The notes under the pieces: model-generated | What the model was told of the DNA's origin: nothing | Database searches by the model: none | The model's input: only the letters and a program-made list of their open reading frames with translations | Position numbers and translations under genes: made by a program | IMG/VR virus record: IMGVR_UViG_3300013126_000012 | Coordinates: 62,001 to 126,000 of that record | DNA: 64,000 bases | From: a virus | Direction: 5' to 3' (one strand) | Part shown: one piece after another, positions 1,584 to 46,163 of the stretch | Layout of the letters: every line of letters starts with the position of its first letter | How positions within the stretch are numbered: position 1 is the first letter of the stretch

Positions 1584-2222
1584 TTATTTTTTTTTACAGT
1601 TATCAAAATGCCATCTATACATATTTGCTGTACTTTTGCTAGATTTTTTACAATGTGGACATATAACATGTTTTTTAAAAAGCCAAGCATTTGACATATT
1701 TAATTTTTCTAGTTCTGATTTAGGTCTTTTATTTTTATTTCGTATTTTTTCTATAGATTCTGCGGAATGATTCCATGTACCTTTTCGTTTTCTCAAAACT
1801 TCCTTATGTTGTTCGGATATAATTTTTCCAGAATGTATAATTTTATTACGTAATGCTACATCTGGCCTAGGCCCTTTTGGTTTTCCTTTTTGCGTTAAAC
1901 CGCGTTTAATATTAGATTCTATAGAATTTTTCCCAGATTTAGATTCCGATGTGGTTAATCTACAATTTAATCCATTTGGTCCTAAAACATTATATAAATC
2001 TTGATAATATCGTTCTCGATTATTTAATTGATTAATATCACATTCTTCTAAAATAATAAATTGATGCCGATCTATACCATATTTATCAATTGATTTTTTT
2101 AATCTTGTTTGAAATTTAAAATTATTATTTCGTTTATATGATGTCCATCGTTTTTCAATATTAATTGATTGGCCTATATAAATTTTATTAGATGGCGATA
2201 TAATTTTATAAATTCCGATCAT
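1584..2222 (-). CDS. Free-standing GIY-YIG homing endonuclease
   Basis: A 212-residue protein. The GIY-YIG catalytic domain is at residues 3-90: GIYKI at the N-terminus, IYIGQS about 12 residues later, the conserved Arg in EKRW, and a later Glu/Asn segment (NNRERYYQDLY). The middle (about 110-185) has repeated GK..S.E...K segments typical of NUMOD3 DNA-binding modules. The C-terminus has a CPHC...H...C zinc finger (about 188-208). The start overlaps the stop of the polymerase gene as ATGA, so translation is probably coupled. The gene looks more AT-rich than the polymerase. There is no sign that it interrupts the polymerase, whose C-terminus looks complete, so this is a free-standing mobile endonuclease. 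Confidence 0.92.
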   Translation of the reverse strand: MIGIYKIISPSNKIYIGQSINIEKRWTSYKRNNNFKFQTRLKKSIDKYGIDRHQFIILEECDINQLNNRERYYQDLYNVLGPNGLNCRLTTSESKSGKNSIESNIKRGLTQKGKPKGPRPDVALRNKIIHSGKIISEQHKEVLRKRKGTWNHSAESIEKIRNKNKRPKSELEKLNMSNAWLFKKHVICPHCKKSSKSTANMYRWHFDNCKKK

Positions 2223-14402: not shown

Positions 14403-14440
14403 AATAACCTTTTCTTGATATTATAATGAAAATGTTTGAA

Positions 14441-14488
14441 TTATCCAAGCATTTCGAGTTTACTTATGTCAACCGGATCCGCCTTCAT
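14441..14488 (-). CDS. Very small ORF, 15 aa, coupled
   Basis: The ATG at 14488 overlaps the stop of the 26-codon ORF (CAATGAAG), giving MKADPVDISKLEMLG and TAA. It is too short to judge on its own. The stop-start overlap suggests reinitiation, but it could be chance, or it could be the continuation of the upstream ORF after a frameshift. Confidence 0.25.
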   Translation of the reverse strand: MKADPVDISKLEMLG

Positions 14489-14565
14489 TGTATAATTATA
14501 GATGTTGCTGTTACTCCCGCAATGTTGGTAATGTTTTCTACTGGTACACCTGATTTATTTGCCAT
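14485..14565 (-). CDS. Small ORF, 26 aa, coupled to the fibre gene
   Basis: The coding strand reads TAA-C-ATG from the end of the 579-residue fibre gene into this ORF, MANKSGVPVENITNIAGVTA and TSIIIQ. The GVPVENITNIAGVTA segment looks like the short repeats seen in tail-fibre tails of aquatic phages, which argues that this stretch is or was protein coding. It may be the start of a longer fibre or fibre-tip gene that has been shortened by frameshift. It fills most of the 164-base gap between the genes at 14402 and 14567. Confidence 0.4.
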   Translation of the reverse strand: MANKSGVPVENITNIAGVTATSIIIQ

Positions 14566-14566
14566 G

Positions 14567-16306
14567 TTATATTTCTGTCCAATCATTAGATGGTCTAAAT
14601 TTCATAATCCATTCATCTGCTCCGCCACTATTCCAATAACAGTGTCCTACAATTCTAACATATCCTGATGCAGGTACGGTCGTGTCCATTGTGGTTCCAG
14701 AACCTGATTTGATGTATATTGGAAGGCCGTAACCTGCACTATCGACTATAGGATATGACCCTCCAATCGTTGACACTACTACATCACCTTCTATTATAAC
14801 AGAACCAGTTTGTGAAAATATGTTTTTAGCTATTCCTAGCATTTTTGTTGAAGAGTCTGTAGTTTGATCTACTTGATACCATTGACCGTCTGTGTTTAAA
14901 TAAACCAAATCATTATCGACAACATTTACATCAAAATACGACTCCCCTAGAATTTGTCCAGCATAGTTGTTAAATCCAAACAAAGTGACTCGCGTAGCTT
15001 CACTAACGTTTTGTTGATTGTACAAATATGTTTCATATGTTCCCGAAAAACCTCCCCAACCCAATGCATCTACACCAGCTGCATTTAATAATGTTCTATT
15101 TCCAAAATCTATACTAGCGCTAGCACCCTGGAATGGTGATCCATATAATTTGCGTTCATAGTTTATATCATCTACTTTGATAGCATCATATGGACCTACG
15201 TCAGGAGTAAATGGTGGAAAACCTGGAATTAAATCTCCTCGTACAATGAATGACCCAGATTCTATAATTACACCTGATTGCCAATTAAGTACCGGGTATT
15301 CACTACCGTTTTTAAGTTGTCGAGTACCCCAATCTATAGAAGTTCTAATTCCGGTAGAATCGACAGTCCATCGATTTTGCCAATTTACTGAATCATTCGA
15401 ACCCGTATCTCGTAATAATCCATCGCCCCAATCAACTGTGTAATCGCTGGAGCCGTTGTCAAATTTGAGTTGTCGGGTATTCCAATCAACGGATTGCGAT
15501 GCATTTGCATCATACATGCTTCGTAAAACACCCCACCGTACTGAAAAATTTCCATCGGAATCAAACAATGTTCTGCTATCCCAATTCACAGAATCTTCAG
15601 TACTACCAGGCATAGGACCAGAACCAATCAATATTTTATTGGTACCATCGATGCTGTCTAAAACACTAAATGATCCAGTTACTCCCAATGAGCCGCTAAT
15701 TTGCGCATCACCGGTAAATGGAAATGGGTTTCCGCCGGGCGCCCATGATGCCGATGTTGCAAACGATGCGGTGCCTGTGAATGTTGCGTTTTGCCAATCT
15801 AATATAATATTGCCATTGTTATCTGTTAACTGCCGCGAATTCCAATCAACGGCAATTTCATCAGCAGTTGGTATTGGTCCAGGGCCATAAAGATATCTAT
15901 TTTCCCAATCTACATAAGTTACCCCTGACGAATTTGCTAAAGTGCGTTGTTCCCAATCAACACTTGGAGTTGCTGCACCATCGGACAATGTTCTACCATC
16001 AGCATCAATGCTGCTAGTACCCATTACATCGTATATGGTTCTAGAAAAATCACTAATTGATATAGCAGGAACATAATTTGCTCCATCAAATGTTTGTGTA
16101 CTAAATGAACCAGTTACTCCTAATGAGCCTGTAATCTCCGCACTTCCGGAGTATGGAAATGCAGGTGTACTTGGAGCATATGACGCAGATAAAGCTTGTG
16201 TTGCGTATGATGCAGTACCTAATAAACTTCCAGTTATGCTTGGAGCATACAATGAATTTAACGTGGCATCAGAGCCAGACGTTATGATCTTTTTCCATGA
16301 CGGCAT
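14567..16306 (-). CDS. Tail fibre protein with tandem VDW-R repeats
   Basis: A 579-residue fibre-like protein. It opens with MPSWKKIITSGSDATLNSLY and a GSLLGTASYATQALSASYA module shared with other proteins here. Residues about 95-400 hold roughly a dozen short repeats of the form (S/A)(V/I)(D/N)W..R.L.(D/N)..G, probably a repeating beta structure along a fibre shaft. The C-terminal 150 residues (YINQQNVSE..., INLVYLNTDGQWYQVDQTTD-like strands, VIEGDVVVSTIGG) form a separate domain that might be the tip. It precedes sheath transcriptionally and follows another fibre gene. The start is backed by AAAAGGAAAACG before the ATG and a promoter-like element 77 bases upstream. Confidence 0.82.
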   Translation of the reverse strand: MPSWKKIITSGSDATLNSLYAPSITGSLLGTASYATQALSASYAPSTPAFPYSGSAEITGSLGVTGSFSTQTFDGANYVPAISISDFSRTIYDVMGTSSIDADGRTLSDGAATPSVDWEQRTLANSSGVTYVDWENRYLYGPGPIPTADEIAVDWNSRQLTDNNGNIILDWQNATFTGTASFATSASWAPGGNPFPFTGDAQISGSLGVTGSFSVLDSIDGTNKILIGSGPMPGSTEDSVNWDSRTLFDSDGNFSVRWGVLRSMYDANASQSVDWNTRQLKFDNGSSDYTVDWGDGLLRDTGSNDSVNWQNRWTVDSTGIRTSIDWGTRQLKNGSEYPVLNWQSGVIIESGSFIVRGDLIPGFPPFTPDVGPYDAIKVDDINYERKLYGSPFQGASASIDFGNRTLLNAAGVDALGWGGFSGTYETYLYNQQNVSEATRVTLFGFNNYAGQILGESYFDVNVVDNDLVYLNTDGQWYQVDQTTDSSTKMLGIAKNIFSQTGSVIIEGDVVVSTIGGSYPIVDSAGYGLPIYIKSGSGTTMDTTVPASGYVRIVGHCYWNSGGADEWIMKFRPSNDWTEI

Positions 16307-16383
16307 ATCGTTTTCCTTTTGTGCTGCGGTTGGTTACATACACTTATGCCGTGCGTGTGCCCACTTCCTTGCGGCCTACAACA
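16307..16383 (-). promoter_or_regulatory. GC-richer 5' leader of the fibre gene
   Basis: This leader separates the promoter-like element at 16384-16397 from the fibre ATG. It is clearly richer in G and C than any other gap in the window (GGCCGCAAGGAAGTGGGCAC and CGCACGGC on the coding strand) and is the second longest leader. No ORF or strong simple hairpin is evident by eye. It ends in AAAAGGAAAACG, a good ribosome binding site. Confidence 0.4.
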
Positions 16384-16397
16384 TTTATAATAAATAT
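16384..16397 (-). promoter_or_regulatory. Late-promoter-like element of the fibre gene
   Basis: Coding strand ATATTTATTATAAA, 77 bases before the ATG at 16306. It overlaps the stop codon of the small gene ending at 16397. Confidence 0.5.
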
Positions 16398-16573
16398 CAT
16401 TGTTTTAGATATTGTTCTTGCAATTTCAATATGATATTGTAGAATGTTTCTACTTGTTCTCCACGAATAGACACATCTTTAAGCAGCATCAACAAAAATT
16501 CAATTTCTTGTTTTGATAATTGTGATGCTGTTTGTGTTTCTGCTTTTGATTTTAATTTGTCAATTATGCTCAT
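16397..16573 (-). CDS. Small helical protein, 58 aa
   Basis: Not recognised. From the ATG at 16573 it reads MSIIDKLKSKAETQTASQLS and continues as two amphipathic helices (EIEFLLMLLKDVSI, VETFYNIILKLQEQYLK). This start follows the fibre gene stop at 16581 by seven bases and is preferred to a longer frame running back into that gene. It could be a helical assembly helper for the adjacent fibres. No motif supports a specific function. Confidence 0.7.
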   Translation of the reverse strand: MSIIDKLKSKAETQTASQLSKQEIEFLLMLLKDVSIRGEQVETFYNIILKLQEQYLKQ

Positions 16574-16580
16574 AACTTTT

Positions 16581-17411
16581 TTAAGAATAAATGTAAATAT
16601 CTCCACTCAATGTATCAACATGAATTGTTCCATATCCATTGCCTGAGCCACCATATATTGGAGCCGGAGATGGTGCGGCTGTGCTTGTTTCTACTGCTCC
16701 TGCATATACCGACGGGGTGAATGAATTGCCCGTGGCATCGAATGATGAAGTAAAGCCCCATCGCGTAGTACCAGAATCATATCCATACAATTCACCAATG
16801 TTTTGAGTACCTTGTTGTACAACAATACCACCATCTCCTGCAGTATTAGATCCAGATGCAAACAATACAAACCGATCTGCAACAAGCAAGTTTGCAGTGT
16901 TTTGAAATGATGCAGTACCTAATACAACCAAATTACCCGTCAATGTTAATCCAACAAACGAAGGAGAATCTGTTGTTTCTAATCCTAAATCGATTGTCGA
17001 CCCAGCTACGCCATTTGTTGTTAATAAAGCCTGACCCTGTCCTGGGCTAGATAACACTGATGCAGATACTACTGTACTACCTGCTAATATTTGTGTTTGA
17101 GTTACGCTACCACCTAATGATGTTGCATTACCTGCAATTGTTATAGATGAATTTGCTAAACTACCATTTGGAATACTACCTAATGTAAATGTAATCGTAT
17201 CTGAACCGGCATTTCCTGAAATATCTAATCCTGCGCCAGACGAAGATGCAAATGTTAATGTATCTACTGCACTATCTGCTAATACATTCGTGCCGTTAAT
17301 AGACATCGTAGCAAATGTATTTTGTGCAGTTATTGATGTTAAATAACCAGCATCATTATTTAATTGAGAAATATTACTTCCCGATACTACTACTTTTTTC
17401 CAAGTTGCCAT
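16581..17411 (-). CDS. Tail fibre or structural protein
   Basis: A 276-residue beta-rich protein starting MATWKKVVVSGSNISQLNND. The opening WKK(V/I)(V/I)(V/T)SGS is shared with the 579-residue fibre and marks this fibre family. Residues about 30-165 are strand-rich and Ser/Thr/Asn/Gly-rich (NAGSDTITFTLGSIPNGSL); a C-terminal region has VLFASGSNTAGDGGIVVQQG and ends GTIHVDTLSGDIYIYS, a pattern seen at fibre tips. A promoter-like element lies 13 bases upstream, with AGGAAC before the ATG. It is cotranscribed with the small gene downstream. Confidence 0.8.
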   Translation of the reverse strand: MATWKKVVVSGSNISQLNNDAGYLTSITAQNTFATMSINGTNVLADSAVDTLTFASSSGAGLDISGNAGSDTITFTLGSIPNGSLANSSITIAGNATSLGGSVTQTQILAGSTVVSASVLSSPGQGQALLTTNGVAGSTIDLGLETTDSPSFVGLTLTGNLVVLGTASFQNTANLLVADRFVLFASGSNTAGDGGIVVQQGTQNIGELYGYDSGTTRWGFTSSFDATGNSFTPSVYAGAVETSTAAPSPAPIYGGSGNGYGTIHVDTLSGDIYIYS

Positions 17412-21832: not shown

Positions 21833-23500
21833 TTAAAGCGTGTTAAGACCGTGAACGTATACTTTTCCGTAGAATTCAGGACGAACTACTTTCTTCGCAT
21901 AACGTGTCATAACACCTTTACGTGGAGTGAAGTTTACTGGATCATATACAAGCGGAGTCATAATCAACGGAATATATGGGCTAAATACAGCACCTGTTTC
22001 AAGGAACTGTGCACCACGGAATCCCATAAGGATTACATTCTCTAACATGTATGGGTTTTTGTATACTGTATAACGGTTATTGATGCTACCAATTTTTTGA
22101 ACACCTGCAGCAAATTCCATTTTGTTACCATCTGTCTCAGCAGCAAATCCTGGGATAGACTCAAGGATAGTTGCAACTGCAGGAGATGTTACTAAGAAAT
22201 TAGCACCACCACGTAATGTTTTTTGGTGAATCTTATTAGATACTTTTTGAAGTTTGGTACCTAAAGTTTGGAACCATCCACCTTGGGTGTTGTAATATCC
22301 ATCACCAACCGCAGTAGCTGCACCAGCACCAGATTGAGTAAATCCAGAACCGTTCCAGAAGTTGTTGTTTAATGCTGACCAATACTCAGTTGTTGGAGCT
22401 GCTGAAATCAACATATCAAGGATTTCAAGATCGATTTCCATTGATACATATTCAGACAACATTGAAGTTAATTCAGCTTCAGCATCAATTGAATGGTATG
22501 CATTTAAATCTTGAGCAAATTCAGGAGTCCATACTGCTTTCAACTTACGAGTCTTAGCAACAATTGGCTCAGATTGCATTTCAAGGTTGATTTCTGGTAT
22601 ATCAATATCAACACCAGTGTTAATACCTGTATTAGCAGAAGATCCTTTGAATGGATTTTTGTCTTCAAAATCACCACGCGTGATATCGGTAGGTTGTTTG
22701 CTATAATTTAATTTGAAATTTCCAGCACCGATTGATGAAGAAATTGCAGCTGCTTGAGTTGTTGTTACAATAAATGATGCAGTGTAATTGCTAGTAATAG
22801 TTGAAAATGCTTGTACCGGGATAATTTCAGTCTCTCCAGATCCAGAAGCAAATGTCCAAGAACGTACTGCATATAAATCAGCATCAGTAGGTACATTGAC
22901 AGTTACGGTTTTGTAACTTGATAATGCTGTTGTAAAATTACCATCATAATTAACAGATGCTGAAGTAGCATTAGTTGAACTCGTTTCTGCAGTTACAGCG
23001 GTAGTTGTATAAGGAATTGAATATCCAAAACGACCAGCACCATAAAGACCGCCAGCTGCATCACTACCAGTTGTAGTAACACCAAACATTGAGTCTAATG
23101 CATTAGGATTTCCAAATGGATCTCCGGTACGATTTAAATTATCATCATCAAATCCCGGTACAGCTGTACCATATTTGAAGTCAAGATAGAAAATAAGACC
23201 TGATGGCAAATTCATTGGTTGAACTGAAACGAATTCTTTTGCTGCAAATTCAGCAAAAATACGACGTACCAATGGAAGTGCTACACCTGCCCACTCTTCT
23301 GATCCTTGTGCAGTTCCAGTTGCAGATGATTCTTTTACTAATTGACGTGCTTGGTTTTCAAGCAATTGTGCCATTCCGGCACGTTCGGTTTCGCCACGAA
23401 GACCTTCTAAAAGTCCCGTTCTTTCCCATTTCGTTACCAACGCTTTTGCATTGTTTCGTTGAACGAAATCATTTGTTTGTAATAAGTTTGAAATACTCAT
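21833..23500 (-). CDS. Major capsid protein (gp23-like)
   Basis: A 555-residue protein. The N-terminal arm (LVTKWERTGLLEGLRGETER, then AQLLENQARQLVKES) precedes PLVRRIFAEFAAKEFVSVQP and MNLPSGLIFYLDF, the standard gp23 pattern. The late segment GGANFLVTSPAVATILESIP is the conserved A-domain strand-helix. Residues about 145-290 are a Ser/Thr-rich insertion (SVNYDGNFTTALSSYKTVTV and following), possibly a surface domain. It forms the capsid shell after cleavage by the gp21-like protease. No promoter-like element precedes it directly, so it is probably read from the scaffold promoter. AAAAGGAAAACG precedes the ATG. Confidence 0.96.
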   Translation of the reverse strand: MSISNLLQTNDFVQRNNAKALVTKWERTGLLEGLRGETERAGMAQLLENQARQLVKESSATGTAQGSEEWAGVALPLVRRIFAEFAAKEFVSVQPMNLPSGLIFYLDFKYGTAVPGFDDDNLNRTGDPFGNPNALDSMFGVTTTGSDAAGGLYGAGRFGYSIPYTTTAVTAETSSTNATSASVNYDGNFTTALSSYKTVTVNVPTDADLYAVRSWTFASGSGETEIIPVQAFSTITSNYTASFIVTTTQAAAISSSIGAGNFKLNYSKQPTDITRGDFEDKNPFKGSSANTGINTGVDIDIPEINLEMQSEPIVAKTRKLKAVWTPEFAQDLNAYHSIDAEAELTSMLSEYVSMEIDLEILDMLISAAPTTEYWSALNNNFWNGSGFTQSGAGAATAVGDGYYNTQGGWFQTLGTKLQKVSNKIHQKTLRGGANFLVTSPAVATILESIPGFAAETDGNKMEFAAGVQKIGSINNRYTVYKNPYMLENVILMGFRGAQFLETGAVFSPYIPLIMTPLVYDPVNFTPRKGVMTRYAKKVVRPEFYGKVYVHGLNTL

Positions 23501-25618: not shown

Positions 25619-25996
25619 TTATCCTACTTCGAAGTAACGATTCAAATGTTGTCCAATATTTTCATATGCAATTGCCATTCGATCTTGTGCTTCTTTTAAA
25701 TCTCGTGCAGCTTGTTCAAAATCACGATAATCTTCATGCATTCGTTTGTTACCTTTTTTATGAGCAACATTTGCCATCCAATCATCACTTTCGGTCATAA
25801 TTTTATCTGCACGATCTACAATTTGTTTAACACGTTCAACAATCTGCTCTAAGTCACCTTTACCATATACCCCATCACTCATTGCAGAAAAATTAGCAAT
25901 CTCTTGAACGAATGCTTGTTTTTCTTCACGTGTCATTGGCTTAGGTTGATCTTGCAGCAATGTTTCTAAAATGAATTTTAAATTTGGTGTTTTCAT
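25619..25996 (-). CDS. Hypothetical helical protein, 125 aa
   Basis: Not recognised. It is entirely helical in appearance, with MTREEKQAFVQEIANFSAM, DLEQIVERVKQIVDRADKIM and a long C-terminal helix (DYRDFEQAARDLKEAQDRMA). The start overlaps the protease stop as TAATG, so translation is coupled to that of the protease. It could be a prohead core component, since small helical core proteins (gp67/gp68 types) lie near gp21 in T4. That is inference from position. Confidence 0.75.
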   Translation of the reverse strand: MKTPNLKFILETLLQDQPKPMTREEKQAFVQEIANFSAMSDGVYGKGDLEQIVERVKQIVDRADKIMTESDDWMANVAHKKGNKRMHEDYRDFEQAARDLKEAQDRMAIAYENIGQHLNRYFEVG

Positions 25997-26628
25997 TATA
26001 TTATCCTACATTTTCCATCTTCACATAAAATTGATGTGATAATGTTATTTACTTTTGCGTATTTATTTGTTGTTATATTTTTATTTACTGATTCGTGCAT
26101 GTGCGTAGGACGCATAAAAGCTCCATGGGTAGACGGATTAGATACAAAGTCCCAACATATCAATTCAAAATCTTCTTGGACTTCTACGGTGCCTTCATTA
26201 CGTAATTCTTTAACTGACCCTAACCCTCGCGAGGAAATTCCCAATATAATTCCAGCTTTAAAAAGTTCCTTAAGAATTCTACCAGATGGCGTATCTAAAA
26301 TTTGTACAGCTCCATGTAAATCATCACCTTTCCACCAAATTTTTAAAACATTATGAGAAACGTTATTTAAGTTTACTACTGATGATTCTGGATGATCTAA
26401 TTCGCCTAATGCTCTATGTTGATCGATATATTCCATTTGATAACGTTGACATTCTCTTTCTAAAATACGTTTTGGATATATACGACCGTTTTGATTTTTA
26501 GCGCCTGCTCGTTGCAAAACTCCTTGAACAACAAAACCACCAGGTATTCCATATGCAGCACCCGATGATTCAGTTAATGAACCTATAGGTTTAAACGGAA
26601 TATATTCTACTATCAGTTGTTTTGACAT
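25996..26628 (-). CDS. Prohead maturation protease (gp21-like)
   Basis: A 210-residue serine protease of the T4 gp21 (U9/herpesvirus-like) type. The probable catalytic His is in GELDHPESS at about 76-84 and the Ser in GISSRGLGSV at about 130-140. The N-terminal FVVQGVLQRAGAKNQNGRIY, then PKRILERE is also typical. It cleaves scaffold and capsid proteins inside the prohead and then itself. The C-terminal 30 residues look like a removable tail. AGGAG precedes the ATG and it is cotranscribed with its neighbours on both sides. Confidence 0.93.
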   Translation of the reverse strand: MSKQLIVEYIPFKPIGSLTESSGAAYGIPGGFVVQGVLQRAGAKNQNGRIYPKRILERECQRYQMEYIDQHRALGELDHPESSVVNLNNVSHNVLKIWWKGDDLHGAVQILDTPSGRILKELFKAGIILGISSRGLGSVKELRNEGTVEVQEDFELICWDFVSNPSTHGAFMRPTHMHESVNKNITTNKYAKVNNIITSILCEDGKCRII

Positions 26629-30091: not shown

Positions 30092-31669
30092 TTACAGAAG
30101 CCAGGTTAAATTTTCATTGTCGCGGCCATTGTTCCAGTGCCAACCATCTGCATTTGTTGATGGCTTACCCGTAAAAATAACTGATTCTGTTGTTTTTGTG
30201 AATTGAGAAAGTGTACGTTTGTGTAATTCAATTCCTTGTTGTCGCAGTTTAAGCGAAGTATCTCGTAACCATAATCCGATACAAAATGACATAACGAGGT
30301 CATCATTATAACCATTTTGTGATTGTGCTTTGCCATTTAACCAGATAAACACAAACAATTCTTGTATCAATCTTTTTGAACGAATTACGGGCGTTTGTTC
30401 TCGCATATACATTTCAAGTGCTGATATCATTAATGGACGCGTACGTGAGGTTGTTGATACTCCTGGAACCATTTGTGATTTATCCTTCATATCATAACCT
30501 TTTTTAAGTTGCACATCTACATCAACATATCCATCATCTTTATATGTATAAAATAAATTTTCATAGCTTCGGTCTAATGCGGGTTGAATTGCTGCCCAAC
30601 CAATATTGGCATTTTCTATTGCTAGCAATGCGTTGTTCCATTCCGTTGCAACCGATACGAGCATATTGCCAAAATCTTTAGGAGGCAATTTACCTTTATA
30701 TTCTGCAACCTGTGATACGCTTTCAACATCAATAACATGAAAAGTAGACCAGTCGGCGCCATCTCCTCGTGCAACGTCGGCTACTACTATGTAATTTTTT
30801 TCATAGTTAGGATATTCCCAAATCCAATATGCATTATCAAATCCTCTGCGTTCAATTGGCTCACTGCATTTATTTTCATAATCTAAAAGAATAGAACCAT
30901 CTATTACAGTATGACCGGATGAAATAAAATCACAGTCACATTCTTGTGCTGCACTTCGTTCTCCTAGCAATTGAGTTTGTTCATCGCGCCATTGTTGATC
31001 TCGATCCGGATGTACGGTCCAATGCAATTTAATTGTGTGAAATCCGTTGATGTTTGATTCAGCATCTGCCCAAGTTTGATGAAACCAATTACCTACCCCA
31101 TTAGGTGTAGATAATACAACCGCACCGCCACCTGTTGATAATGTTGCTTGCGATGCTACCCATATTTCTTCAATGTTTCGAATAAATGCAGCCTCATCAA
31201 TAATTAACAACGATAATGCTTCTGAACGTGCGCCTGTGGTTGCAGATGAAACTGCTTTAATTTGCGAGCCATTTTTAAACTTCAACGAAAGTTTGTTGTC
31301 CGCTTCAATAGTTCCCTTCAACCAACTTGGTAAATTATCATGCATTACGCGCACTTTAGTTACCAAGTTTTTTGCTACTTCTTGAGTTGTTGCAATAACA
31401 AGAACATTGAAATCTTCTTTAAACAACATGCTCCATAAAGCAAAGCCGGCAGCTAACGTTGATATACCTAACTGACGAGATTTCAAAATTACATTGTATC
31501 GATTATCTCGCAATTCGGTTAATGTATTTTCCTGAAAATCGTAAAGATTAAACTTAATCTTACCTAATTTTGGATGTTGAATATAACAATATTGTCGCAT
31601 AAAGAAAACAGGATCTTTAGCACACATTGTATACTGTTGTTGAATGATCTGTTTTATGTTTTGTGACAT
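30092..31669 (-). CDS. Terminase large subunit (gp17-like)
   Basis: A 525-residue ATPase-nuclease. Walker A is in VILKSRQLGISTLAAGFALW (about 60-79), Walker B is LLIIDEAAF (about 154-162), and coupling motif VVLSTPNG follows near 185. The RNase H-like nuclease domain begins at YIVVADVARGDGADWSTFHV (about 290-310, catalytic Asp) and has NDDLVMS near 455. It packages DNA through the portal. The stop is 33 bases before the portal ATG. A small terminase subunit is not evident among its neighbours. Confidence 0.97.
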   Translation of the reverse strand: MSQNIKQIIQQQYTMCAKDPVFFMRQYCYIQHPKLGKIKFNLYDFQENTLTELRDNRYNVILKSRQLGISTLAAGFALWSMLFKEDFNVLVIATTQEVAKNLVTKVRVMHDNLPSWLKGTIEADNKLSLKFKNGSQIKAVSSATTGARSEALSLLIIDEAAFIRNIEEIWVASQATLSTGGGAVVLSTPNGVGNWFHQTWADAESNINGFHTIKLHWTVHPDRDQQWRDEQTQLLGERSAAQECDCDFISSGHTVIDGSILLDYENKCSEPIERRGFDNAYWIWEYPNYEKNYIVVADVARGDGADWSTFHVIDVESVSQVAEYKGKLPPKDFGNMLVSVATEWNNALLAIENANIGWAAIQPALDRSYENLFYTYKDDGYVDVDVQLKKGYDMKDKSQMVPGVSTTSRTRPLMISALEMYMREQTPVIRSKRLIQELFVFIWLNGKAQSQNGYNDDLVMSFCIGLWLRDTSLKLRQQGIELHKRTLSQFTKTTESVIFTGKPSTNADGWHWNNGRDNENLTWLL

Positions 31670-33939: not shown

Positions 33940-35964
33940 TCATCGTGCGTATTTCAATACTCCTAGTATCTGATTCACCGGAGCAAATGCACCTGTTAAC
34001 TTATATGTATTTCCGCCATATGTAAATACTACACCTTCGGACGGCACAATTGCATCAAAACCACCCAATCGTTCAATACGCTTAAGTTCTAATTCTAGTT
34101 TTGCAACTGTCTGCGGATTAGGATTGTTTTGTAGTTCTCTTATAAGTTCAGCCATTTCTTGTTTAATTGTTTGAACTGTTTTTGATGGATTTGCTGCTAA
34201 GAAATTTTCTGCATTTTTTAATGCTACTGCGCCTAAACGTAAAAACAATGTTTCAAATGGTTCCATGTTTTGTTTGTAGTAACGTTTAAATTCATTTTTA
34301 TCAAATTCTTGCACCCAATTTAAAAATTCTGCATTATCTATTTGTTTTTTAAGTGTGGTCATGCTTTCTGATTTATCGAAAAATGCCCAACGATAAATTA
34401 ATGTGTTTAATATATTTTCTGGAATATCGTATCCCATTTTATTTGCTTGTGTTTTAATAACATCTGACCACCAAGCTCGATGATATTCAGTTAATCGATC
34501 AGTATCTTTTAAACCGTAACGATTTTGTAATTGTGCAACTTCATCAAAAAATGCTGCTTGTTGATCTTCAAAATTAGAAATTCTACCTATTTTAATTCGC
34601 TGTGGCGGAATGAATGAAAATGTTTTTTGAAGATGTGCATTAGCATCTTGGATAATGCCTTGCAAAGTACCACCACCTGTTAAATCTGTTTCTATTTGAT
34701 TGCCTTGTTCATCATATTCTATTAAATTGTGAAATTGTAACACTGCAACTTCATATGAAATAACATTTTTCGTAGCTGGATAGATAATTTCCATGTTTGC
34801 AAATACTCGACCATTCTTAAAAATTTGATTGAGTTTATCTTGTGGTACACGACTAAATGCTTCAGCTAAATCTTCTGCAGCATTCCCAAATGCATCTGAT
34901 ATTGGTCCTCGGCCTCCAAACTTATCTTGTATTTGTTGAACTGACATTGGTGTAATAACAGTACCTTTATTTCGTGCAAATCCAATTTGTCCGTTTTTCC
35001 ATGTAACTTGAATGTTTTGACCGTCGGTTTTTTCTGTCACTGCTTGTTCAATATCTAATCGGCCTTCTAAAGCACGAGATATAATTTCTTTGACATCGCT
35101 AAACGTTAACCCATGATCATCCCATGGATGTGCCATGTGTCCTGCTGCGCCACCTTCTTTAATTAATCGAATTCCTTCTGATAATGGCACTCCATAAACC
35201 GTTTTATCAAAATCTGCAAAGTCATATGTAAATGCTTTTCCGACGTGATTATCTAAAAATTTTCTTAATTTTTTAATTTTTGCTTGATGTTTTGCTGTTT
35301 GTTTTGGAGTAGGATATCCTTCAAATATTTGCATAACATCTTCTTGTAATTGTTTAGTCCACCACTCTTTGGTAAACAATGCTTCTTGTAAACCTGTTGC
35401 AATTTGCCACGCATTTTTTACTAGAGCATCTTTATATTGCGGATATGATGCACGGAATGTTTCATAATCGCGATCCGTAATAGCTTTGCGTACGATGGTT
35501 GCTGATATAGGTGTTCCGTCGGCATATGTTTCTGGATCTACATCGATACTTAATTCAGTTGCATCAACGCCCATAGGTATTTTGCGTCCTTTTTTATCAC
35601 CAATAGTTGCATATTTGTCTACATTAGGAACAAATGCTTTTGCTCTAACATAATCATCGCCTTTTGTAGATGCAGCCATTGCATAACGACCTTTAGCATC
35701 TGATGGAAGTTCAAACAAATATTCGTACGCTGCCATGATTGGCGAATTGAATTCAGTGGGTTGAATTCGTATGTCCGGATTATCATTGAGCAAGTTAAAC
35801 ATTTCAATGCTTTGTTCTCGTGTAATTCCTTCTCTAGGTTGAGGTCCTATAAGTAATATTACTTGACCTACCTGAGGCGATTCTGCATAACGTTGTGCTA
35901 ATGCTAAATGAGCTCCAGTTAATGGTTTAAATCCACCAGGAAATAAAACTGTTATTTTATCCAT
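33940..35964 (-). CDS. Fused NMNAT/cytidylyltransferase-like and polynucleotide ligase-like protein
   Basis: A 674-residue protein with two apparent catalytic regions. Residues 4-165 have the nucleotidyltransferase (HIGH) fold: FPGGFKPLTGAH at 8-19 replaces the usual G.F.P.H.GH, and ISATIVRKAI at about 152-161 matches the (I/S)S.T.(I/V)R motif. From about 265 on, covalent nucleotidyltransferase (ligase/capping) motifs appear in order: EKTDGQN (motif I, Lys at about 311), ANMEIIYP (III-like, about 390), ISYEVAVLQF (IIIa-like), SEGVVF (IV, about 645) and YKLTG (V, about 655). This suggests a bifunctional enzyme, perhaps for RNA repair, NAD metabolism or RNA-end modification. It is expressed with late genes from a promoter-like element nine bases upstream. 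Confidence 0.78.
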   Translation of the reverse strand: MDKITVLFPGGFKPLTGAHLALAQRYAESPQVGQVILLIGPQPREGITREQSIEMFNLLNDNPDIRIQPTEFNSPIMAAYEYLFELPSDAKGRYAMAASTKGDDYVRAKAFVPNVDKYATIGDKKGRKIPMGVDATELSIDVDPETYADGTPISATIVRKAITDRDYETFRASYPQYKDALVKNAWQIATGLQEALFTKEWWTKQLQEDVMQIFEGYPTPKQTAKHQAKIKKLRKFLDNHVGKAFTYDFADFDKTVYGVPLSEGIRLIKEGGAAGHMAHPWDDHGLTFSDVKEIISRALEGRLDIEQAVTEKTDGQNIQVTWKNGQIGFARNKGTVITPMSVQQIQDKFGGRGPISDAFGNAAEDLAEAFSRVPQDKLNQIFKNGRVFANMEIIYPATKNVISYEVAVLQFHNLIEYDEQGNQIETDLTGGGTLQGIIQDANAHLQKTFSFIPPQRIKIGRISNFEDQQAAFFDEVAQLQNRYGLKDTDRLTEYHRAWWSDVIKTQANKMGYDIPENILNTLIYRWAFFDKSESMTTLKKQIDNAEFLNWVQEFDKNEFKRYYKQNMEPFETLFLRLGAVALKNAENFLAANPSKTVQTIKQEMAELIRELQNNPNPQTVAKLELELKRIERLGGFDAIVPSEGVVFTYGGNTYKLTGAFAPVNQILGVLKYAR

Positions 35965-38694: not shown

Positions 38695-38727
38695 GAATTT
38701 GATACTTTATTATAAATATCAAACATG
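38692..38727 (-). promoter_or_regulatory. Hairpin enclosing the late-promoter-like element and covering the fibre start
   Basis: Coding strand TTTGATA (38723-38717) pairs with TATCAAA (38704-38698), and outer CATG copies (38727-38724 and 38695-38692) can extend the stem past a 2-base bulge. The second CATG contains the start codon at 38694. The promoter-like element occupies the loop. Confidence 0.5.
38706..38719 (-). promoter_or_regulatory. Late-promoter-like element of the fibre gene
   Basis: Coding strand ATATTTATAATAAA, 11 bases before the ATG at 38694. It overlaps the stop codon of the Mre11-Rad50-like gene. Confidence 0.55.
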
Positions 38728-41700
38728 ATTAATCTTGCTGAATCCGTTTGTTTTATTAACTTCAATCAAATTATCAACCATATCGCGCATCGAATCAACG
38801 TGTGAAATGATAATTGAAAAATCAAATTTAGTTCTAAAATAATCAAATAAGTTTACTACTGAAGAAATATGTTCTGCATCTAATGAACCCCACCCTTCAT
38901 CAATTGCAATGAAATTGGGACGTGGTAATGCTGAAACATTGATAAGTGCAATGCGAATTGCTAATGACGAAATAAAACGTTCCATACCAGATGTTAATTC
39001 CAATGGCCAAAAATTATCTTCATCGTAAATAATATATCCGTTGATGTTTTTGCCATCGGTGTTTAATACCATGTTAAATTCAACAATTTGATTGAGTACA
39101 TTATTGATTTCAGCTTCAATTTTTGGAATAGCTTTTGCAACTAATTCATATGGAATACCGTTACGTTTAACTGATTCTAAATAATATTCATATGCTTTGT
39201 ATTCTGTTTCAAGTTGTCGATAACGTTCCAATTGTTCTATTGCAGTGCCTTTATTTGTACGTGCAACTTCAATTGAGCCAAACAATGATTTAATTTGATC
39301 TTGAATTATTTTGATTTGTTGAGAACAAGTTGCAATTTTAGTTTTACATTCTTCAATTTCAGCGTCAACTAGTTGATTGTGTGTGATTGCGGTTTCATTT
39401 TTACGGAATGATTCTTGACGTTCAATTGCGGTTTCTAATTCTGATTCTCGTGTTTGCAAATCACTTTCTAGGATTTGAAGTTGCAATTCATTGCGTTCCA
39501 ATGTAATTTTTTTAGTTGCAATATTGGATTTCAATTTGTTGTATTGGTCTGCTATTTCAAATACAGGTTGTAATTTATTTAATTCTACGGTTGCAAATTC
39601 AATATGTTGTTGCAATTCCTCTAATATCGCTCTATCCGAATCAATTGTATTTTGAGCTTCGATTGCATTTTGCACGAAAACGTTAGATGTACAGTATTTG
39701 CAGTTTGGATCATATTCATGAGATTCGAGATGTTTAATTTTTTCTTGTTTTGCATTTACTTGTTCCTGTTGTTGTGTAAACTTTTGTGATTGTTTGTTTA
39801 TGTTAGATTCTAATTTTTGATATTGTTCAATTTGTGTTTTTATTAAATCTGCATCAATATTAACTAATTTAGATTCTAATAAATCAATGTTTTCTGACAA
39901 CGTTTCTAATTCTTGTTCTGCCGTTTCTATTTCCGTTTGGATTGATTCAATCTTATTAATTAGTACGCGTTCTTGTGATTGCAATTCTTTGATGTTTGGA
40001 CCATCGTACGTTGTTGGTAATTTAGTTTCAATTAACTGTACAATTTGTTCTTGTAATCCGTTTCGCTGATCTTGTTGTTGATCTTCAAGTTGTTCTAACG
40101 AAATAATAGTATTTTGATTTTCCATTATTACTGCATCGGCTTGCACAATTATTTCGGCAAAGTCAGTTTTTTTATAATCTTTTAATCGGCCTGCAGTTTC
40201 TTTGATTTCATCTGCTGCAAGTTGATAAAGTTGTTCAAACACCGTAATATCTAAAAACTGCGACAATAAATCTTTGCGTTCTTTTTGTGACTTTTCAATA
40301 AAGTTATTGTTGTCCGCTTGCAAAGAAAATGCCGTTAAAATAAAATCATCATATGTGCCCAAATAGCGACGAATGTTTTTATTTGTTTCACTGCGTTCTT
40401 CGCCATTTAGATTTTCTGAATCAGTGTAAAAATCTACATCAACTTTAACGTGCGTATCTTTCTTTTTGTTTTGCGTGCCGCGCCGTTCAATGGTATATGT
40501 TATGCCATTCATTTCAAAACGAAATACACCACGGAACCACGTTTTTTTGTTATTTAAAACTTCGTTTGCTTTGCTTGTTTTGCTGCATTTATCAAATATA
40601 ATATATGTAATTGCATCAAGTAAACTTGATTTGCCAGATGCATTTGTAGCAAAAAGTCCGCACACATCAGAAAGTTTGTCAAAGTTTAATGCGTTGCCTT
40701 CGCCATATGAAAACATGTTATCAAATTCAAATGATATAGGATGCCATGTAGTATGTCGTATTGATTCTACTGCTGGCAATTTTGAATTTATTGTGCGATT
40801 GATGTGTCTGATAGCATCAACTTCTTGCGGAGTAGCTTGTGGATAATTTGCGTCAATATATTCCGTCAATAACACATTTTGATATTCAACATCGCGCACA
40901 TTTCCAATTGCCAAGCTAGAAGATGCATTGGTTGCTGCAGCTCCTATAGTTCGTTGAATTGTAATGTCTTCTACTTGATATTTTTTGCGAATCGTTGCAA
41001 TCAACCGTTTCATATCTGCCGCGCTTGTTTCATTAAACTTGATGCGAATGCGTGGACGTTTCGGCATACGGTGAGGTGAAGATATAATTGCAGAGCCTTG
41101 AGTTTCTATAGTTACATAACCATAGTCATTTTCAATTTGCACAAAGTCTGCAGTACGTCGTTCCGTATCCCAAACCAAAATGCCATGATCTAATGCTTCG
41201 CCATGATTTTGTTGAATAAGTGAACCTGGATACGCAACGGTGCGTGCATCATCTAAAAACTGTGCCGGTTTATGAATATCTCCTAGCAACGTAATGTCAT
41301 GTCCTTCAAACAAATCAACGCCTACGTGTTCATTTGATATTTGATAACCAATATCAGTACGAGCTGTATTTACTGCACCATGGTGTAATGCAATTTTATA
41401 TGATGCCGAAAAATCTTTTGCACGAATGTATTCTGCGGGTGTTTTATCGACAGCCATATGATTCCAAGTTACGCCACCTAATTCAAACAATCCATTTTCT
41501 TTGATGAAATGAATATTAGGATTTTTAATCACATCGAGAACTGGACTAACTGCATCTACGCGATGCATATTGTTCAAATTCATATCGTGATTACCTAGAA
41601 TAACAATTGTAGGAATTGTGAATTCATTGAAGAAATCAACAAGCATTTGAACTAATTCTGGCGACATATCTAATTTGCTATGCACAATATCGCCAGTTAC

Positions 41701-41865
41701 AACCGCAATGCTGTTTGCAGTACAATTTGCTTTAATATAATCAAATAAATTTTTAAATACTTGACGATATTCGGTGTGTCGTTTCAATGTACGAATATGT
41801 ACATCGGATATATGAAAGATTTTGTCAATCCGTTCAATACCAGTTTCAATTTTTTTTATGTCCAT
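38719..41865 (-). CDS. Single-chain Mre11-Rad50 (gp47-gp46, SbcD-SbcC) recombination nuclease
   Basis: A 1048-residue fusion. Residues about 15-280 are an Mre11/SbcD phosphoesterase: SDVHIRT, TGDIVHSK, LGNHDMN, ALHHGAV and LGDIHKPAQ supply the metal ligands. From about 375 on it is Rad50/SbcC: Walker A GLFATNASGKSSLLDA (about 400-416), two long coiled coils flanking a zinc hook CKYC (about 722), signature LTSGMERFIS (about 957-966), and Walker B FIAIDEGWGSLD (about 985-997). In T4, gp47 and gp46 are separate proteins that resect DNA ends for recombination-dependent replication. Here one unbroken frame covers both. It overlaps the primase gene by 10 bases. Confidence 0.95.
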   Translation of the reverse strand: MDIKKIETGIERIDKIFHISDVHIRTLKRHTEYRQVFKNLFDYIKANCTANSIAVVTGDIVHSKLDMSPELVQMLVDFFNEFTIPTIVILGNHDMNLNNMHRVDAVSPVLDVIKNPNIHFIKENGLFELGGVTWNHMAVDKTPAEYIRAKDFSASYKIALHHGAVNTARTDIGYQISNEHVGVDLFEGHDITLLGDIHKPAQFLDDARTVAYPGSLIQQNHGEALDHGILVWDTERRTADFVQIENDYGYVTIETQGSAIISSPHRMPKRPRIRIKFNETSAADMKRLIATIRKKYQVEDITIQRTIGAAATNASSSLAIGNVRDVEYQNVLLTEYIDANYPQATPQEVDAIRHINRTINSKLPAVESIRHTTWHPISFEFDNMFSYGEGNALNFDKLSDVCGLFATNASGKSSLLDAITYIIFDKCSKTSKANEVLNNKKTWFRGVFRFEMNGITYTIERRGTQNKKKDTHVKVDVDFYTDSENLNGEERSETNKNIRRYLGTYDDFILTAFSLQADNNNFIEKSQKERKDLLSQFLDITVFEQLYQLAADEIKETAGRLKDYKKTDFAEIIVQADAVIMENQNTIISLEQLEDQQQDQRNGLQEQIVQLIETKLPTTYDGPNIKELQSQERVLINKIESIQTEIETAEQELETLSENIDLLESKLVNIDADLIKTQIEQYQKLESNINKQSQKFTQQQEQVNAKQEKIKHLESHEYDPNCKYCTSNVFVQNAIEAQNTIDSDRAILEELQQHIEFATVELNKLQPVFEIADQYNKLKSNIATKKITLERNELQLQILESDLQTRESELETAIERQESFRKNETAITHNQLVDAEIEECKTKIATCSQQIKIIQDQIKSLFGSIEVARTNKGTAIEQLERYRQLETEYKAYEYYLESVKRNGIPYELVAKAIPKIEAEINNVLNQIVEFNMVLNTDGKNINGYIIYDEDNFWPLELTSGMERFISSLAIRIALINVSALPRPNFIAIDEGWGSLDAEHISSVVNLFDYFRTKFDFSIIISHVDSMRDMVDNLIEVNKTNGFSKINHV

Positions 41866-45620: not shown

Positions 45621-46163
45621 TTACCAATCAATCATTACAAGTTTATTATTCCACACCATCACGTTGTCAGTTTTAAAATCTAAATCTAATTCTAAATCTG
45701 GAATATCTATTTTTTTAATGTCTTGTTGTAATGCTCGTAAAAAATTAATCAATTGAATATTTGTGTCGCGAGCACCATCTGCATCTAAAAAATCAAATAT
45801 CGAAACTTCACCGCCTTGCTCTTGCGCATACGTTTTATAATTAGCAATGAATCGATTAACGACTATTTTTTGGTTACTTGATAATTCCGATGCTTTAGCC
45901 ATTATATACATGTTATTTCCATCTACATAATATACCGGAATAAAAGTTGTATATCTGCTATAATTATCTACTAATTGTTCAGCAACTCGGTATTCTTCTG
46001 TTTCTGTAGTTATTTTAAATAATTTATCTTCACCTTCAATTTCGTATACACGTCCATTATCGCCTTGTCCAAACAAAGAAAATTGTTTATTTTTAATTTT
46101 TTGCAAGATTCTGTTTAAATCTTTGCTATCTATTTCTACAAGTAAATTTCGTAAACGTATCAT
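45621..46163 (-). CDS. Minimal protein-kinase-like fold
   Basis: A 180-residue protein with kinase-like signatures in the right order. FGQGDNGRVYEI (about 31-42) is a glycine loop, KLFKIT (about 47-52) supplies the beta-3 Lys, FIPVYYVDGNNMYIMAKASE (about 74-93) fits the hinge region, DLDFKTDNVMVW (about 161-172) fits the catalytic loop (H.D....N), and the chain ends at MIDW, in the place of DFG. Nothing follows that would form a full C-lobe. It could be an active small kinase, a toxin-type kinase or a structural pseudokinase. It overlaps the LamG protein gene as TAATG. Confidence 0.72.
   Translation of the reverse strand: MIRLRNLLVEIDSKDLNRILQKIKNKQFSLFGQGDNGRVYEIEGEDKLFKITTETEEYRVAEQLVDNYSRYTTFIPVYYVDGNNMYIMAKASELSSNQKIVVNRFIANYKTYAQEQGGEVSIFDFLDADGARDTNIQLINFLRALQQDIKKIDIPDLELDLDFKTDNVMVWNNKLVMIDW

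Follow-up and report, generated by a model that had tools for sequence, protein, structure and literature searches.

A phage fusion of a HIGH-superfamily nucleotidyltransferase and a ligase-type domain, and its recurrent pairing across phages

What task could be served by a phage protein in which two nucleotidyl-transfer domains are joined in a single chain? The question is raised by a gene on the minus strand of the window, by which we mean the whole stretch of 64,000 nucleotides that was analysed. A first-pass annotation had read it as a fusion of a HIGH-type nucleotidyltransferase (NTase) with a ligase or capping domain, and had suggested either that one half might provide or regenerate a cofactor used by the other or that the protein modifies RNA ends. 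The source is a virus record of 159,586 bases (159.6 kb) from a T4-like freshwater phage, which carries a T4-like head set consisting of a gp23-type capsid protein, a gp20-type portal, a gp21-type prohead protease and a T4-type terminase large subunit. The gene had been described as lying next to the terminase; it is indeed near the gene for the large subunit (30092-31669), but four small open reading frames (ORFs) intervene. In the ORF check, the plus strand was closed in that frame over 33940-35964.

Two nucleotidyl-transfer domains in one chain

33940..35964, minus strand: NTase-ligase fusion gene, 674 aa plus stop (ATG ORF and translation)
35395..35964, minus strand: HIGH-superfamily nucleotidyltransferase domain, aa 1-190, NMNAT/NadD/CoaD fold (model, Foldseek and profile)
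35908..35937, minus strand: GGFKPLTGAH motif, aa 10-19, the TxxH form of (H/T)xGH; G10, F12, P14 and H19 invariant, n=30
35488..35508, minus strand: ISATIVR motif, aa 153-159; S154 and R159 invariant
33943..35154, minus strand: ligase-like covalent nucleotidyltransferase domain, aa 271-674 (model, top PDB folds RNA/DNA ligases, alignment)
35020..35034, minus strand: motif I, EKTDG, with the predicted nucleotidyl lysine K312; E, K, D and G invariant, n=31
34783..34797, minus strand: motif III-like NMEII, aa 390-394; E392 invariant
34060..34677, minus strand: block of ~200 mostly helical residues separating motif IIIa from motif IV, ~aa 430-635 (model secondary structure)
34024..34038, minus strand: motif IV, EGVVF, aa 643-647; E643 and G644 invariant
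33991..34005, minus strand: motif V-like YKLTG, aa 654-658; K655, T657 and G658 invariant

All the motifs quoted in the first-pass annotation (GGFKPLTGAH, ISATIVR, EKTDGQN, MEII, EGVVF and YKLTG) are present, those of the ligase/capping type in the correct order, and the existence of two nucleotidyl-transfer domains in one protein was borne out by folds as well as by conserved motifs. Structure prediction for aa 1-190 and 271-674 gave confident models with the expected folds (the ligase matches being weak, E 2e-3), and both motif sets are kept among the homologues: the Lys and the EG do not vary in any of 31 relatives, even at 25% identity. We regard the two-domain anatomy as virtually certain.

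The AlphaFold2 model of aa 1-190 (pLDDT 90.7, pTM 0.86) returned 56 Foldseek matches in the PDB at E<=0.001, and the top 50 all belong to the NMNAT/NadD/CoaD families; the best is NadM 2qjo (E 7e-6), with NadD and PPAT matching alike (prob 1.00). A profile built from eight distant NTase members led to the archaeal NMNAT MJ0541 1f9a (E 1e-9) and NadM 2qjt (E 1e-9), followed by CoaD. Both HIGH-superfamily signatures, (H/T)xGH and ISxTxxR, are present on a Rossmann-like NTase fold, the first as a TGAH variant. In the alignment of 30 sequences, G10, F12, P14, H19, R107, S154, R159 and F170 are invariant; G10, F12, P14 and H19 were found in 70/70 aligned relatives and R159 in 73/73. The fold and the GxFxPxxxxH and ISxTxxR motifs are common to this half and to NMNAT, NadM, NadD and CoaD, but the phage domain has the TGAH variant, falls below the NMNAT model cut-offs and has a ligase-like half as its fusion partner rather than a Nudix or kinase domain. 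In fact, it reached no curated equivalog cut-off, and that for NMN/NaMN adenylyltransferase was missed by far (TIGR00482, 13.9 bits vs 112.45). A Pictet-Spenglerase-type match to aa 86-162, obtained by phmmer with the whole protein, was rejected as spurious.

For the C-terminal half, residue numbers are those of the window protein, that is, the model number + 270. Among 31 ligase domains that are 25-89% identical to that of the window, E311, K312, D314, G315, R331, E392, E643, G644, K655, T657 and G658 are invariant and reproduce motifs I, Ia, III, IV and V in the sequence known from ligases and capping enzymes. EKTDGQN covers aa 311-317; the predicted catalytic lysine, which had been expected near residue 311, is at position 312, with a glutamate at 311. 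The first 33 PDB fold matches of the model (pLDDT 90.7, pTM 0.87) are all RNA or DNA ligases, with probabilities of up to 0.97, and the ranking is led by the Palaeococcus RNA ligase, T4 Rnl1, archaeal Rnl and T4 Rnl2. This ranking suggests an adenylyltransferase (ATP-grasp/RAGNYA) fold, although the scores are weak (best E 2.2e-3 and TM ~0.2, for the full half rather than the core), which we attribute to the ~200-residue helical block between motifs IIIa and IV.

The motif order EKxDG...E...EG...K is shared with the Rnl1, Rnl2 and archaeal RNA ligases (T4 gp63, T4 gp24.1 and Palaeococcus 8uce), which also provide the best solved folds, but there are several differences. In addition to the helical insertion, a (nearly) invariant GHMxHPxDD forms an unusual lead-in to motif I, motif V reads KLTG with a single Lys, and in the model motif V is followed by a single helix and no further domain, neither the specific C-terminal domain of the Rnl1/Rnl2 type nor, elsewhere, an NAD+-ligase Ia domain being seen. 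With the window protein, PHROGs, PADLOC, NCBIfam and Pfam gave no match in the ligase half; the RNA-ligase family PF09414 matched weakly in only 2/33 members (best E 0.0032), and a PDB profile search with the ligase alignment found nothing credible, that is, no solved sequence relative. A reading of the protein as a defence system was discarded, as there was no PADLOC match. By its motifs and model, the C-terminal half is a divergent ligase-type nucleotidyltransferase, of a distant family with an unusual helical insertion, and it is very likely that its predicted chemistry proceeds through a lysyl-nucleotide.

Relatives and recurrence of the pair

A first IMG/VR scan gave 138 relatives, and the 80 best of them were retained (best-segment identity 61-92%); when a profile made from the C-terminal half was used, the number of IMG/VR relatives rose to at least 556, a recurrence far greater than chance would give. 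When the window gene was compared with five relatives, omega was 0.09-0.21 in the NTase part and 0.04-0.15 in the ligase part, and both halves are therefore under purifying selection for function; the linker (0.19-0.53) is weakly constrained except at particular sites. No plasmid matches were found, and a scan of genome contigs with the ligase half gave ten matches in metagenome-assembled genomes, most of which we take to be mis-binned phage contigs. In one locus (L079:5977-8317), the gene is broken between the halves, with a shifted frame, which may be natural or may come from misassembly.

Some database proteins are the closest counterparts found. The phage proteins A0A6J5MBE6 and A0A6J5MCV5, annotated as "Cytidyltransferase-like domain-containing proteins", match the ligase half over its full length (BFVD E 8e-41, TMq 0.94, 39% identity), and WWT39297.1 of Microcystis phage Mel-JY01, which among the phages found is the closest one in culture, has the two domains in the same order as in the window, with a ligase half of 37% identity. 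Nevertheless, all three differ in their insertions and are named for the NTase only, their ligase halves being unannotated. Among the relatives as a whole, the arrangement may be NTase-ligase, ligase-NTase (L163, L168 and L171) or two separate proteins (L002, L142 and L155), and the longest relatives reach 1,909 aa. The pair is fused in L164 to a CCA-adding enzyme (PolyA_pol E 1.5e-29 plus an RNA-binding domain; CCA tRNA nucleotidyltransferase model E 3.7e-51) and in L150 to a P-loop kinase of the AAA_33/zeta type; CCA-adding fusions were found in 1/33 members and kinase fusions in 2/33.

Other insertions were also observed. L068-L084 have an extra domain of ~145 aa in the linker (KFTHFIDRLNDPRNE...), which bears a weak resemblance to phrog_23027 and phrog_14518; L055 and L070 have a zinc-ribbon-like CxxC insert between the halves, and the insert of L098 reads as SGNH hydrolase-like. 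The separate NTase proteins (L002:9256-11214, L142:5561-7330 and L155:7209-9056) have an N-terminal motif of their own, of the EKxNG or a related type (EKLNGTG in L142, ENLDGS in L002), and this region is possibly a second, degenerate ligase-like domain.

A similar association is found in phages in which the genes are separate. In T4-like cyanophages, a gene encoding a KWDG protein of the DUF6267 family (PF19782, E 5e-140) directly precedes a HIGH NTase gene in all 66 of the 66 loci with enough flank, and relatives of the DUF6267 protein occur in 468 phage records. The BFVD fold search with the ligase half also listed a structural match to the cytidyltransferase-like A0A0M6VVW4 of S-PM2 (E 7e-5). 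The cyanophage pair (T4-GC 71 and T4-GC 190) resembles the fusion in that a KxDG/EGFV/K-type gene lies beside a HIGH NTase, with KWDG, QGD, EGFV and KLV in the same order as in the ligase half, but the genes are separate, QGD replaces the Glu of motif III, and hhalign aligned only the EG...K end of DUF6267 with the ligase half (P 0.07). In Stenotrophomonas phages, the gene for a KMDG...EGV...KIK protein overlaps an adjoining HIGH NTase gene. In hhalign comparisons, homology with the ligase half was demonstrated neither for DUF6267 nor for the Stenotrophomonas phage protein, and we therefore claim only a recurrent association for the three ligase-like families. At this level, a HIGH NTase and a ligase-type domain recur together across many phages, either fused or as neighbours.

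Among openly available papers, we found none that describes this pairing. The fusion unites known kinds of enzyme, a HIGH NTase and a ligase-type nucleotidyltransferase, in a widespread and uncharacterised pairing.

The linker and a possible link to the virion

35155..35394, minus strand: variable linker, aa 191-270, with [LI]xE[AGS] sites after aa 194, 215, 263 and 270 (relaxed omega)
35380..35391, minus strand: candidate prohead-protease site 1, LQE|A, aa 192-195; E in 72/72
35149..35163, minus strand: site 2, likewise a candidate for the prohead protease, IKE|GG, aa 268-272, just ahead of the ligase half; 73/74
25996..26628, minus strand: T4 gp21-type prohead protease, candidate processing enzyme (PF03420 Peptidase_S77, E 3.8e-33; phrog_207)
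21833..23500, minus strand: major capsid protein gp23 with a conserved VKE|S site (PF07068, E 4e-74)

The gp21 protease of T4 cuts after L/I-X-E (PMC9026906), and sites of this kind are conserved in the linker of the fusion. At the end of the NTase half, site 1 ([LVI]QE|[AS]) has A, S or T at +1 in 72/72 relatives and mostly L, V or I at -3, and it is similar to the VKE|[AS] site found at the expected place in the capsid protein of the phage (E in 77/77). Site 2, [LI]xE|GG, directly precedes the ligase half in 73/74 aligned relatives; when 116 non-redundant relatives were compared, 107 had E at position -1, 8 had M and 1 had C, all 116 had L, I or V at position -3, and position -2 was variable. 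Altogether, four [LI]xE[AGS] sites lie within a linker of ~100 residues, against 0.24 per 100 aa expected from the other window proteins (P ~1e-4 by a simple Poisson estimate, for a region that was picked after the sites had been seen). [LI]xE|GG is not a universal site, since a clade consisting of L141, L147, L156, L157, L159, L162 and L166 has LLLM|GG instead of LLxE|GG before the ligase half, so that the cleavage site would be lost there, and the GG after the Glu may be structural.

Neither the conserved Glu-cleavage-type site that separates the halves nor the connection with virions had been noticed in the first-pass annotation. The window protein starts with MDKITVLFPGG and lacks an N-terminal capsid-targeting leader, the leader pattern being matched by 2/38 members of its clade, and its entry into the capsid would therefore need an internal signal. 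Divergent homologues, in contrast, have T4-type leaders ending in L/I-x-E (MKIYNTFEHFLTE, MGFYNYSQFVSE and MSKTLTEWLVKPLLE), and in T4 internal proteins a 10-residue leader of this kind serves packaging (PMC9026906, PMC10229621). The pattern is present in 14/22 divergent homologues vs 53/143 other ORFs of the same loci (p 0.02). Of the cyanophage NTases, 30/39 have leaders of this type, for example MKTFLQFISE or MKSFSRFLSE, vs 28/191 other ORFs (p 4e-14). Both p-values overstate independence, because the sequences are related to one another. The window protein thus shares the L/I-X-E motif with T4 internal proteins and Alt, as its divergent homologues share their leaders (PMC9026906), but its sites lie inside the linker.

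Published virion data also bear on this question. The cyanophage cytidylyltransferase T4-GC190 was found in virions of S-SM1 (PMC3037559), and in S-ShM2 the GC190 gene follows the DUF6267-type gene, GC 71. NMNAT-like proteins have been reported from other cyanophage virions (PMC9602691, PMC10665884), with the authors' caution that they may have co-purified (PMC10665884). T4-GC15, the second new virion protein of S-SM1, was considered as the DUF6267-type protein and rejected, as the latter is GC 71 in S-ShM2. We consider that the fusion protein is probably delivered in the head, its packaging into virions being moderately likely, and that it is possibly cut in two at E270, the chance of cleavage between the halves lying a little short of even.

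In the same phage, about ten otherwise unlike proteins, including one lysozyme with LysM and one DUF5872 protein, have a common N-terminal leader, M-I-R/K-L-K-x-L-L-x-E:

L334:14470-15246, 15246-15647, 16337-16732 and 16732-17148, minus strand: shared-leader ORFs
L336:13334-13864, minus strand: shared-leader ORF
L337:1345-1617 and 1650-2039, minus strand: shared-leader ORFs
L338:13916-14413 and 14421-14975, minus strand: shared-leader ORFs
L339:6593-6976, minus strand: shared-leader ORF
45621-46163 of the window, minus strand: shared-leader ORF

The pattern was found in 7/157 minus-strand ORFs vs 0.4 in shuffles, and judging from its sequence it may be the capsid-targeting leader of this phage. 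The linker of the fusion reads GIRLIKE|GG at the start of the ligase half.

Candidate functions of the pair

The most likely mechanism, as suggested by motifs and models, would be that of a bifunctional RNA-end enzyme. K312 would become nucleotidylated, ATP being the most probable donor; the ligase half would join or cap RNA ends, with the HIGH half activating the partner nucleotide or end group. The fusion protein would enter the prohead, where a gp21-type protease would cut it after E270, and probably also after E194, so that the two enzymes would separate in the mature head; both would then enter the cell with the DNA and repair tRNA or other RNA that host nucleases have damaged. Taken as a whole, this explanation, with two enzymes for RNA-end processing delivered in the head and cut apart during maturation, stands at about an even chance.

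A CCA-adding enzyme or a P-loop kinase in a few relatives points to RNA-end repair, and such partners are described for RNA ligases in the accessible text of a review on phage RNA repair, which does not describe a HIGH NTase in that role (PMC7824862). These fusions and the RNA-ligase fold ranking therefore favour RNA ends over DNA ends, and RNA is a somewhat more probable substrate than DNA; of the two ideas put forward in the first-pass annotation, modification of RNA ends is the better supported. Against it, the CCA-adding and kinase fusions are rare, and the 159.6-kb record has one tRNA and no match to an AAA_33 kinase, a CCA enzyme or RtcB.

The other idea has the HIGH half, as an NMN adenylyltransferase, converting NMN and ATP into NAD+, which the ligase half would use, releasing NMN (or it would use ATP). 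We think this unlikely. The nearest profile matches are indeed NMNAT MJ0541 and NadM, the top fold is NadM 2qjo, and the fusion and the strict neighbourhood would fit a shared metabolite; against this, the NMNAT equivalog cut-off was missed (13.9 of 112 bits), PPAT and NadD folds match about equally well, and the NAD+-ligase Ia domain was not seen. Furthermore, the record has no NAPRTase/NadV, and reviewed phage NadM always occurs with NadV (PMC9503650). The exchange of a cofactor between the halves thus gained no positive support, separate halves and halves in reversed order being found as well. It is less probable still that the ligase half acts on DNA, sealing nicks in that of the phage or of the host, such as at the ends of the injected genome: DNA ligases belong to the same superfamily and appear among the lower fold matches, and no PF01068 DNA ligase was found in the record, but RNA ligases rank above DNA ligases in both PDB and viral fold searches, the model has no OB domain after motif V, and the company kept in relatives is that of RNA repair.

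KxDG nucleotidyltransferases include capping enzymes, and the ligase half might cap or label RNA 5′ ends with a nucleotide taken from NAD+ or from a CDP- or ADP-linked donor that the HIGH half would make. A motif V of KLTG rather than the usual KxK and the unexplained GHMxHPxDD before motif I would agree with this, but the best PDB fold matches are ligases, with no dedicated cellular capping enzyme among them, and we consider this reading about as improbable as DNA sealing. Lowest of all we place a head protein of minor catalytic importance, in which the enzyme folds are kept mainly for structure in head assembly; homologous NTases have been reported in virions (PMC3037559, PMC9602691), but even very divergent relatives keep the catalytic residues of each half unchanged, and purifying selection is strong.

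The bifunctional RNA-end enzyme could also be part of something broader. Our tentative proposal, which we hold to be rather less probable than an even chance, is that T4-like phages carry a head-packaged RNA-repair polyprotein, in which an NTase and a ligase, with further cassettes in some cases (a CCA-adding enzyme, a kinase, a zinc ribbon or other inserts), are parted by internal sites for the prohead protease, cut and injected with the DNA, so that damage to host RNA would be mended before phage genes are expressed. If so, the DUF6267/cytidyltransferase pair of T4-like cyanophages would be its split version. More generally, a testable function can now be proposed for a very common pair of phage genes, annotated only as "cytidyltransferase" and "hypothetical/DUF6267", and the NMNAT-like proteins published as virion-associated and left unexplained are now linked to a ligase-like partner. 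Should packaging of the halves and their cleavage by the prohead protease take place, RNA repair would be available from injection on, a point of relevance to phage survival under anticodon-nuclease defences. Polyvalent proteins are likewise long multi-enzyme phage proteins that are predicted to be injected, but the NTase-ligase pair was not found among them in the accessible text of their description (PMC5512222), and their hub domains MPTase, ArdC and ART were not found here.

Some other genes of this phage are worth recording. A protein of 1048 aa (38719-41865, minus strand) combines a metallophosphatase domain with an SMC/Rad50-type ATPase, as if T4 gp47 and gp46 had been fused, and a short ORF with a HIGH-type start (GNFDVIHPGY; L336:6612-7025, minus strand) seems similar to glycerol-3-phosphate-type cytidylyltransferases. 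L335 appears to be filled with sugar-nucleotide and glycosyltransferase-like genes, and L334:4726-6333 (minus strand) holds a GroEL chaperonin-like ORF, in a phage of ~160 kb.
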